From contig NZ_JACJSJ010000037.1 in the NCBI RefSeq assembly GCF_014698115.1, positions 1 to 64,000 of the forward strand: 64,000 nucleotides of DNA, in the 5' to 3' direction. Numbering within the stretch: position 1 is the stretch's first letter; every line of letters begins with the position of its first letter. The notes under the pieces were generated by a model. That model was not told where the DNA came from and did no database searches. It saw only the letters and a program-made list of their open reading frames with translations. The position numbers and the translations under genes were made by a program. Positions 11,527 through 13,743 of this stretch are shown piece by piece. The DNA is from Nostoc sp. FACHB-973 (GTDB lineage Bacteria; Cyanobacteriota; Cyanobacteriia; Cyanobacteriales; Nostocaceae).

Positions 11527-11827
11527 ATTGCTAATACAAACAAAGTTTGTCTACATAGCTTGTTTTCATTAATTGCGATTGAAGGCGATCTGTTGAAAAA
11601 GATTATATATCTTGTGCGAAGTTAAGTAAAACACATGCCTCAAACCCTTGTGCTGTAAGGCATCGACACACCTCAACGAAAAATATAGCGTTTCGGCGAT
11701 TCCGCGAGGTGTGTAGATCAACATCTGATATAAAAATTTTACCGATATAGTTGGGTAAATATTGGTATTTTTGGTAGGATTCTACCTAGCATCAATTTTA
11801 TCAAAAAACCTCTCAAGCACCTTTTCC

Positions 11828-12622
11828 ATGAAAAGAAGACAAATTCTTGGCTTCCTGGGTATAGCAGTTGCTGGCTTATTGCTAGCAATTGGGTTACCGT
11901 TAGTTACTCCTTCTCCCGTAATCGCCCAGTCTAACAACATACTTGTGTCAGCCGCCGCTAGCTTAAAAGATGCGCTGGAAGAAATTAAGCCTCTGTACCA
12001 ACAAAGTAAATCAGATGTGAATGTTACTTATAATTTTGGCGCTTCTGGTGCTTTGCAGCAACAGATTGAACAAGGTGCGCCGGCAGATATTTTTATTTCG
12101 GCTGGTAAAAAACAAGTAGATGCCTTAGAAACTAAAGGACTTCTCTTGCCAGGTACCCGCACTAATCTAGCAAATAACCGTCTGGTTTTGATAGTAGCTC
12201 AGGATGTTGAGGGTATCACTAGCTTCTATAATTTAACAGATGCCAAGATTAAGAAAATTGCGATCGGTGAACCCAGAAGCGTACCGGCAGGGCAATACGG
12301 TGAGCAAGTCTTAAAACAATTGCAACTTTACGATCCCCTTAAACCCAAATTAGTCTTTGCTAACAATGTGCGTCAAGTCTTAGCAGCAGTAGAAACCGGT
12401 AATGCCGAAGCCGGTCTAGTTTATGCCACTGATGCCAAAATCTCCAACAAGGTAAAAGTTGTAGTCGCTGCTGATGAGAAGTTTCACTCACCGATAGTCT
12501 ATCCGATGGCAGTACTCAAAAGTAGTAAAAATCCTTCTGCGTCCAAAGAATTTGTCCAGTTTTTATCTAGCACTCAAGCTAAAGATATACTCAAAAAATA
12601 TGGATTTATTGTGTCTAAATAA
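11828..12622 (+). CDS. modA: molybdate ABC transporter substrate-binding protein
   Basis: A 264-residue periplasmic binding protein. The signal peptide covers about residues 1-35 (MKRRQILGFLGIAVAG to a VIAQ cleavage site). The mature protein starts ILVSAAASLKDALEEIKPLY and contains YNFGASGALQQQIEQGAPAD, the ModA oxyanion-site region, and GNAEAGLVYATDAKI near the C-terminus. An in-frame TTG at 11762 would add 22 residues before the signal peptide, so the ATG at 11828 is chosen. No modB or modC gene follows; the 12623-13128 stretch holds only a repeat and a small peptide gene. The permease must be encoded elsewhere. Confidence 0.9.
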   Translation: MKRRQILGFLGIAVAGLLLAIGLPLVTPSPVIAQSNNILVSAAASLKDALEEIKPLYQQSKSDVNVTYNFGASGALQQQIEQGAPADIFISAGKKQVDALETKGLLLPGTRTNLANNRLVLIVAQDVEGITSFYNLTDAKIKKIAIGEPRSVPAGQYGEQVLKQLQLYDPLKPKLVFANNVRQVLAAVETGNAEAGLVYATDAKISNKVKVVVAADEKFHSPIVYPMAVLKSSKNPSASKEFVQFLSSTQAKDILKKYGFIVSK

Positions 12623-12660
12623 CTAGCAGCTTGTTCGATAAACTCCAGTGAAGTACACCC

Positions 12661-12725
12661 GTAGGGGCACGGCATTGCCGTGCCCTTACCCTCGCAATAT
12701 AATGTTGTACCGCATCTGAATGGGA
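12661..12725. repeat. extended palindromic repeat after modA
   Basis: The 29-bp palindrome (12661-12689) is followed by CCTCGCAATATAATGTTGTA and CCGCATCTGAATGGGAAC, which is the reverse complement of the unit at 6261-6328. The two copies are inverted relative to each other and 6.4 kb apart. Confidence 0.75.
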
Positions 12726-12854
12726 ACCGCTAATATAAGCGTTAGTAACAAAAAATCATTCATTACAATAATGTCTATTTAAAAAGTATGTAAATACTAA
12801 AATGTATAACTTTTGGTTGATGAGATTGCTAGCTAATCAAAGGAAAATTCTCGT

Positions 12855-12869
12855 AGATTTTAAAAATCT
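12855..12869. promoter_or_regulatory. palindrome before the peptide start codon
   Basis: AGATTTT, one A, AAAATCT, ending 11 nt before the ATG of the small peptide gene. It could be a protein site or a hairpin that hides the translation start; no clear Shine-Dalgarno sequence is seen. Confidence 0.35.
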
Positions 12870-12880
12870 CCCGAAAAAAT

Positions 12881-13042
12881 ATGTCTAGAATCACAATCAC
12901 TAACTTGCAACCTGACAATCAAGTTAAAGAACAGAAACTATCTGAGGCGGATCTGAAGGCAATCGTTGGAGGAATTGAAGTGAAGCTTCTAGGTAATAAT
13001 TTTGTTGAGTTGATATTCAAAGGTTTTATATTAACGATTTAA
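12881..13042 (+). CDS. double-glycine leader peptide (bacteriocin/RiPP-like precursor, 53 aa)
   Basis: A 53-codon gene, too short for usual gene finders. The N-terminal half, MSRITITNLQPDNQ then KLSEADLKAIVGG, has the features of a double-glycine secretion leader: the MSxIxIxxLxP opening seen in many cyanobacterial bacteriocin-like precursors, conserved hydrophobic positions (L20, L25, I28) and Gly-Gly at 30-31. The predicted core is 22 residues, IEVKLLGNNFVELIFKG then FILTI: hydrophobic, with two lysines and no cysteine. Such leaders are normally cut by the peptidase domain of a PCAT-type ABC exporter. No exporter or maturase gene lies nearby, so this is an orphan precursor. A perfect AGATTTT/AAAATCT palindrome lies 11 nt before the start codon. 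Function inferred only from the leader. Confidence 0.65.
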   Translation: MSRITITNLQPDNQVKEQKLSEADLKAIVGGIEVKLLGNNFVELIFKGFILTI

Positions 13043-13128
13043 TTTTAGCAGCACATTCAAAAGACAAAAACTCTACAATAATTAAGCGTAACCCAGTGTA
13101 TTTGTTGGGTTACGCTTTTCTGTTGTAT

Positions 13129-13686
13129 TTAAGAAGCTGCCGATTGTAACTTTTCTAGTCGTGCTAATACTTCTGAACTGTGAATAGTTGGGTTGACTTT
13201 GACAAAAGTTTCGCGCAAGATGCCTTGAGGATCGATGATAAAACTGTGGCGCATAGATAAGAAACTCAGCCACGAACCGTAAGCTTTACTCACTGAACCA
13301 TCAGAATCAGCCAACAGAGGGAATTTTAGTCCCTCTGAATCACAAAATTTAGCGTGGGAATCAATATCATCAGCACTGACACCGAGAATTTCGGTGTTTT
13401 TTTCCAGATACTTGGGTAAGTCTTCCTGAAAACGACGAGCTTCTATAGTACAACCAGAGGTGAAGTCTTTGGGATAAAAGTATAAAACTACCCACTTACC
13501 ACGAAAGTCAGAGAGGGAAATTTTGCCATCACCTGTGTTAGTTGGCAAAGTAAACTCTGGTGCAGGTTGATTAATTGCAGGAAGTTTACCACCAAGAGCG
13601 TCGGCAGTAGGGGTAAAATTCAGCCAGCTAATAATAGAAATACAGCTGGCGAATAATATGCTTAAAAAAGTGCGGCGGGAAATCAT
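13129..13686 (-). CDS. peroxiredoxin of the PrxQ/BCP type, Tat-exported
   Basis: A 185-residue thiol peroxidase. The N-terminus MISRRTFLSILFASC contains a twin-arginine motif (SRRTFL) and a hydrophobic stretch to about residue 30 (TADA), indicating export by the Tat pathway to periplasm or thylakoid lumen. The thioredoxin-like domain has the peroxidatic cysteine C79 in DFTSGCT. PrxQ proteins normally have a resolving cysteine five residues later; here the sequence is GCTIEAR, so that position is arginine. The other candidate is in KFCDSEG. A TTG at 13716 would add ten residues, but the ATG at 13686 fits the Tat signal. It follows sipA by 57 bp on the same strand and may be co-transcribed. Confidence 0.88.
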   Translation of the reverse strand: MISRRTFLSILFASCISIISWLNFTPTADALGGKLPAINQPAPEFTLPTNTGDGKISLSDFRGKWVVLYFYPKDFTSGCTIEARRFQEDLPKYLEKNTEILGVSADDIDSHAKFCDSEGLKFPLLADSDGSVSKAYGSWLSFLSMRHSFIIDPQGILRETFVKVNPTIHSSEVLARLEKLQSAAS

Positions 13687-13743
13687 GGTGCAAACCAGAA
13701 TGACAACTTTACACAAGTTTACAATTCCTGGTTGCTACTGATC

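Follow-up and report, generated by a model that had tools for sequence, protein, structure and literature searches.

The analysed window is the whole 64,000-nucleotide stretch and belongs to a 9.5 Mb draft genome (G000). An open reading frame of 53 codons, from ATG to TAA, is found in the ORF list of the window exactly where the earlier note had placed it, with a modA-like binding protein gene on the one side and a convergent peroxiredoxin gene on the other, as named by Pfam (table 1). Its product of 53 amino acids consists of the leader MSRITITNLQPDNQVKEQKLSEADLKAIVGG and the core IEVKLLGNNFVELIFKGFILTI, with the boundary at the GG of residues 30-31. The core contains no cysteine, has 22 residues, a GRAVY of 1.2 and a net charge of 0, in agreement with the double-glycine leader and hydrophobic core first described. 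Downstream of the stop codon, conservation by eye extends over no more than about a dozen bases. Between modA and the peptide cassette, at 12655-12735, there is a repeat-like element (GTAGGGGCACGGCATTGCCGTGCCC...GTTGTACCGCATCTGAATGGGAACCGCTA), and an element resembling it is also located in the modA-peroxiredoxin interval of a locus without the peptide (L127).

Table 1. Features of the peptide locus and its surroundings (positions in the window)
Feature	Position	Strand	Basis
modA-like solute-binding protein (flanking context, outside the system)	11762..12622	+	PF13531
Conserved box TAATGTCTATTTAAAAA, marking where conservation starts on the left; may be a site for a regulator or of the -35 region	12769..12785	+	Alignment
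Conserved TATAACTTTTGGTTGATGAG (TATAAC resembling a -10 box)	12805..12824	+	Motif search, 59 genomes
5-bp hairpin of the presumed 5' UTR (GATTG-CTAGC-TAATC)	12824..12838	+	Weak covariation
Precursor peptide gene, 53 aa (ATG...TAA)	12881..13042	+	Homologue searches, frame, omega
Double-glycine leader (residues 1-31), with C39 cleavage predicted to follow Gly31	12881..12973	+	Ends of partial matches
Cysteine-free core, residues 32-53 (22 residues)	12974..13039	+	Omega 0.41; AlphaFold2 models
Stem-loop resembling a terminator, after the peptide gene and before the convergent gene of the peroxiredoxin	13084..13117	+	Sequence scan
Peroxiredoxin (flanking context, outside the system)	13129..13716	-	PF00578

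A homologue search, proposed in the earlier note, revealed relatives with a conserved leader. In the protein database, a single-sequence search gave 2 matches versus 33 homologous protein clusters with a profile search, and due to this increase the idea that protein databases lack most of the orthologues was rejected. At the genome level, 17 of 99 genomes (the own genome included) were matched by a single-sequence search, all of the same genus. The profile search of 217 Nostocaceae genomes located 26 full-length copies in 25 genomes, that is, 18 of the 53 genomes of the genus and seven genomes from four other genera. Nostoc and Desmonostoc are the genera of the 13 named loci that have a relative, and for one member (P0023) the source names the organism Nostoc punctiforme. 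The gene was only partly overlooked, because several relatives carry a hypothetical-protein annotation, and one is labelled "Bacteriocin" by its source.

The 33 clusters align without gaps across the 53 residues and show 12 invariant columns (M1, I4, I6, L9, Q10, G30, G31, L37, F46, G48, F49, and L51). Both G30 and G31 are present in all 33 clusters and in all 24 distinct translations. Homologues with identity as low as 42% retain the frame of 53 amino acids, and the core has 22 residues in every compared copy. N-terminal extensions of some database entries were taken for other choices of the start codon.

Selection was examined in 25 copies, which after removal of one duplicate gave 24 distinct coding sequences. 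None of them has an internal stop, and the other two forward frames contain stops in all 24 sequences each. The omega of the whole gene is 0.56 (95% interval 0.39-0.83) and that of the core is 0.41 (0.22-0.71), with a bootstrap P(>=1) of 0.002 for both, whereas the leader with 0.71 (0.43-1.21) is not significantly below 1 (P 0.09). Within the leader, residues 1-11 show an omega of 0.31 and residues 12-31, including the cleavage region, of 1.13. In a smaller set of 16 sequences, omega is 0.60 for the whole gene, with 0.62 in the leader and 0.57 in the core. The contrast between core and leader depends therefore on the wider set, since the smaller one barely separates the two, and the intervals overlap. 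To judge from the homologues, the unbroken frame and an omega below 1, this is a real conserved gene of an uncharacterized family, as had been claimed for the ORF between modA and the peroxiredoxin.

Besides the full-length copies, the profile detected 44 partial matches in the 217 genomes, of which 38 remained after the exclusion of six with internal stops. Their E-values are per genome and reach up to 0.01, with a couple of chance matches expected over all genomes; one match in an open frame of 432 residues is probably such a case. The majority (34 of 38) end at residues 31-39, that is, at the GG or just past it, 22 of them at residues 31-34, and none extends beyond residue 45. The leader-only sequences have the form M..I.I..LQ....ELS..EL..I.GG, followed by differing cores. 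Since the leader matches other precursors up to the GG while the cores differ, it is considered a genuine leader, which gives the double-glycine assignment an independent support. The leader type is present at many Nostocales loci, which supports the earlier note in this respect too.

The window peptide reaches 13.6 bits in TIGR01847 (bacteriocin_sig), below the cut-off of 15.7, with residues 19-31 aligned, and is the only one of 18 members matched at E <= 1; the cut-off was passed by four of the six leader-only relatives tested. No Pfam family is listed for the peptide at E <= 10, a search in which the HMMER filters drop most weak matches, and neither the NHLP nor the Nif11 leader domain has a Pfam match. 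The CTB family (NF038167) is absent from the NCBIfam matches of the window peptide and of the 18 members. NCBIfam matches of some members to Epx, ATP synthase delta, GRASP_targ_2, and others were dismissed as noise, being weak, mutually inconsistent and with printed scores below the cut-off.

Other leaders of this type in the same genome had been suggested as a further check, and a second gene was indeed matched by the family profile (C191:33816-33935, E 0.0015). It has no C39 exporter within 20 kb. With the leader-only profile this gene and the window gene are the top two matches of the genome, a rank given by construction because both are rows of the profile; third place goes to a much weaker match (E 7e-4). 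GG-box matches beside the exporters of contigs C187 and C253 are weaker and cover only the last 17-26 of the 29 profile positions. The orphan precursor at L054:9763-10020 (G000:C191), the second one with this class of leader in the genome, reads VNNMKITELQSDKQMDELSNEELQQIVGG up to the boundary and continues with LPEIPLLRQ; a further GG peptide (L196) adjoins the orphan precursor of C191.

Exporters are found elsewhere in the genome. Nine C39 matches above the Pfam cut-off were located in it by the search that the earlier note had recommended. A tblastn comparison of the 64 kb window (E 0.001) with nine own-genome exporter sequences and with two own-genome C39 domains detected no C39 exporter, and Pfam recognized no RiPP modification enzyme among ten neighboring proteins of the gene, so that both absences first reported were confirmed within this scope. 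In the full family, none of the 22 neighborhoods (8.8-20 kb, some cut by contig ends) contains a C39 exporter.

In the leader-only group, 10 of 25 neighborhoods, in ten different genomes, hold a long-type exporter and 15 hold none. These 25 neighborhoods (7 + 18) include some cut by contig ends and several from one genome (four of G521, two each of G011 and G003), and by chance about 2% of such windows would contain a C39 exporter (nine in 9.5 Mb), the loci of the same genome not being independent. The difference between 10 of 25 and 0 of 22 is the reason for regarding the gene as an orphan precursor. All ten exporters are closest to the own-genome exporters of contigs C90 or C230, which have the cNMP_binding-C39-ABC architecture and are adjoined by HlyD and rotamase genes in both cases. 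In the classification given by Wang et al. (2011; PMC3140520), this architecture is the "long type", which belongs to groups I, II and VI. Of the ten exporters, seven have a complete C39 domain and one (L159, G506) lacks most of it; in the other two (L056 and L060) the stretch ends within the domain.

Conservation upstream of the gene starts at TAATGTCT. The box begins (<=2 mismatches) 112-116 nt 5' of the ATG and an exact TGATGA is located 63-67 nt 5' of it, each in 23 of the 24 copies, L172 being without both. The block accompanies the gene, with its spacing unchanged, at the different sites. With up to one mismatch, TATAACTTTTGGTTGATGAG is present at all 12 peptide loci among the 59 genomes searched, and its only two other matches (G006 and G026) fall within another ORF, on its first codons. 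TATAAC is missing from the diverged copies L167 and L170-L172, and a sigma-70 scan left it unmarked. We read the block as a putative promoter plus 5' UTR.

The palindrome which had been reported over the mRNA leader corresponds in fact to two weak elements. The one, AGATTTTAAAAATCT at 12855-12869, is kept by eye only in near relatives. The other is the hairpin that follows TGATGA, in which 91% of the cells are paired and three of the five pairs have changed on both sides; this covariation is mild and its support weak, as 8-27 of 500 shuffles reach the observed values, depending on the measure. RNAalifold found no compensatory pair in the 5' region, and the hand-placed hairpin did better. The succession TGATGAG-hairpin-CGAAAA recalls the core of a hammerhead ribozyme. 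This reading was dropped because the base 5' of TGATGA varies (T, C, A, and G) and no Rfam family reaches its gathering score in the seven loci scanned, mir-202, snoR64, and others remaining far below.

Nineteen of the 53 genus genomes contain an exact TAATGTCTNTTTNAAAA, and in 17 of them it is placed at the peptide gene. Elsewhere it lies at the start of another ORF (G001) and at a remnant (G004), and one genome with the peptide (G016) has a variant. The motif read backwards gave 35 scattered matches in a control, so it is not rare in itself. A shared regulon was rejected, as no further target was found in the 53 genus genomes.

The gene was found in at least six different neighborhoods, plasmids included. 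Besides the modA-peroxiredoxin site (named by Pfam), it is located between a nadR-like gene and a gene for a 448-aa protein (the second site), between an SDR gene and an RNA 3'-phosphate cyclase-like gene in four genomes of one genus, at a cupin-like gene and near a transposase-like fragment, all these names being read from the sequence. Two further copies, with one flank in common, are on plasmids of 307 and 304 kb of Nostoc sp. MS1. The latter plasmid, pNSMS102, is typed as conjugative, and its copy of the peptide is annotated as a hypothetical protein. No neighbor is common to all sites as a candidate immunity gene, the flanking genes varying by site.

Peroxiredoxin loci, matched in 53 of 59 genomes and examined in 30 examples, comprise seven with the peptide, 14 modA-peroxiredoxin sites without it, and nine without modA nearby. 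In one of the 14 (G009), the site is empty and the peptide is found at the second site instead. The remnant of G004 (L192, G004:C112) keeps the upstream box TAATGTCTGTTTAAAAA in a sequence resembling the second site. There, the box is directly joined to the sequence of a gene which elsewhere is placed kilobases downstream. This is consistent with a deletion of the peptide gene and is thus an indication that loss by deletion also occurs.

On balance, we consider it probable that the gene encodes a C39-exported peptide whose function, as a signal or a surface factor, is conserved, and less probable that it encodes a fast-evolving bacteriocin. The leader, the class of exporter and the precedent of EbfG1-4 described below all speak for export of this kind. 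If expressed, the precursor would be cut after Gly30-Gly31 by a C39 ABC exporter from another part of the genome, the most likely candidate being the long type with a cyclic-nucleotide-binding domain. The product would be a hydrophobic peptide of 22 residues and about 2.5 kDa, probably unmodified and perhaps beta-stranded. As a hint only, three short beta strands appear in the core in both of two AlphaFold2 runs (18 and 27 sequences), which are of low confidence (mean pLDDT 58.5 and 53.3). The tighter constraint on the core than on the leader makes a constant partner of the exported peptide probable, as would be expected for an intercellular or a surface/biofilm factor and less for a diversifying antimicrobial. 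Counted against export as a signal are the neighborhoods without an exporter (22 of 22 in the full family and 15 of 25 in the leader-only group), the TIGR01847 score, the omega of residues 12-31, the P value of the leader, the nearly equal core and leader values of the smaller set, the patchy presence, the low confidence of the structure models and the exporter without most of its C39 domain (L159). The gene seems to move as a solitary cassette of about 290 bp with upstream control block, leader, and core. A speculative extension, which we hold to be rather unlikely, is a self-contained mobile signalling cassette, in which one promoter/UTR and an exported 22-mer with a conserved core would move among chromosomal sites and plasmids (one of these typed as conjugative) of Nostocaceae and borrow the resident long-type C39 exporter. 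If so, its carriers would share an extracellular signal or surface factor without secretion machinery of its own.

The main alternative to the signal or surface factor is a precursor of a bacteriocin or microcin, exported by a C39 transporter encoded elsewhere and inhibiting related cyanobacteria. We regard this as possible, at a distinctly lower probability. Double-glycine leaders are typical of bacteriocins, the core is hydrophobic, and one relative bears the "Bacteriocin" label. The patchy presence (18 of 53 genus genomes), the plasmid copies and the changes of locus would also suit a weapon. However, its core is conserved under purifying selection, unlike the precursor cores of cyanobacterial bacteriocins, for which Wang et al. 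(2011; PMC3140520) describe very little conservation, and the variable flanks offer no shared immunity gene. Because of the constrained core, a signal or surface role is modestly favored. The earlier proposal of a secreted signal or bacteriocin served by a distant exporter stands in respect to the gene, the leader and the exporters elsewhere, but a typical diversifying bacteriocin is disfavored by the conserved core.

Three other explanations have a very low probability. The peptide could be the substrate of the heterocyst exporter HetC, possibly encoded away from hetC. HetC of Nostoc PCC 7120 belongs to the C39 exporters and carries a cyclic-nucleotide-binding domain; the text on it describes its substrate as unknown and perhaps encoded elsewhere in the genome (PMC10986499); its cNMP-C39-ABC architecture could accept a GG leader and the leader class accompanies exporters of the same architecture. 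Nevertheless, the searches did not detect the gene in 35 of the 53 genomes of the genus and, with such a patchy presence, it is a poor candidate for an essential heterocyst factor. Equally improbable is a peptide similar to type I toxins, small, hydrophobic and acting on the membrane without being exported, the leader of which would be RNA-regulated. The hydrophobic core, the possible 5' structure and the plasmid copies would be in favor of it, but up to the GG the leader can be aligned with those of other precursors, whose 25 neighborhoods include the ten with exporters. It is also hardly credible that the ORF is incidental and the conserved element acts as DNA or RNA, for instance as a promoter, a small RNA, or a regulatory leader. 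The strong conservation of the upstream block and the weakly covarying hairpin would fit such an element; the omega, the absence of stops, the frame kept in distant homologues, the leader homologous to other precursors and the Rfam result for the seven loci scanned contradict it.

Searches of the open-licence literature returned no description of this family, and the main text of an exoproteome paper including Nostoc punctiforme (PMC11424642) contains neither "double-glycine" nor "bacteriocin". The precursors of groups I and II, as presented by Wang et al. (2011; PMC3140520), are similar in their short length, their GG leader, and the frequent proximity of leader relatives to long-type exporters. 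In the clusters described there, exporter and HlyD genes adjoin the precursor, whereas here the gene is solitary; the cores of groups I-VII are diverse, and here the core is constrained. The present peptide has in addition its own constant upstream block, and by Pfam it belongs neither to NHLP nor to Nif11. Solitary precursors as such are not new, since putative DUF37-type double-glycine precursors of Subsection V cyanobacteria have been noted as unclustered with other bacteriocin genes (PMC4558948); these are, however, another protein family, as the present peptide has no Pfam match.

A non-antibiotic role is described for Synechococcus elongatus, where the C39 cysteine of PteB is needed for the efficient secretion of EbfG1-4, GG-motif proteins serving biofilm formation (PMC4997328). 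They are set beside the present peptide by description, as small GG-motif proteins with a C39 exporter, but the EbfG genes form one four-gene transcript (PMC4997328) and here a single orphan gene is found. There are many double-glycine exporters in cyanobacteria and few substrates with a known role, EbfG being one. Genome mining which looks only beside exporters overlooks solitary precursors, and the family provides a short, conserved and testable candidate substrate.

Several arrays of related precursors were observed in addition. Two identical tandem precursors of 52 aa (L093:4-159 and 288-443, G000:C90) have leaders of the form MSNIAISNLRP...LGG and the core ARVIILFTALCFEW; they are located at a contig end, about 3 kb from a long-type C39 exporter. 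In G521 (L150:5088-9890), about 3 kb from a long-type exporter, there are six precursors in tandem that resemble one another both in the leader (MAKITISQLQT...KGG) and in the core. Finally, paired precursor families with leaders MATIKISELQPESQFEKLSDADL..NGG and MANIKIAELQSSLLEEVS..DLEAVHGG are placed side by side in L151, L152, L153, L154 and L155, and an exporter is present in three of these five neighborhoods.
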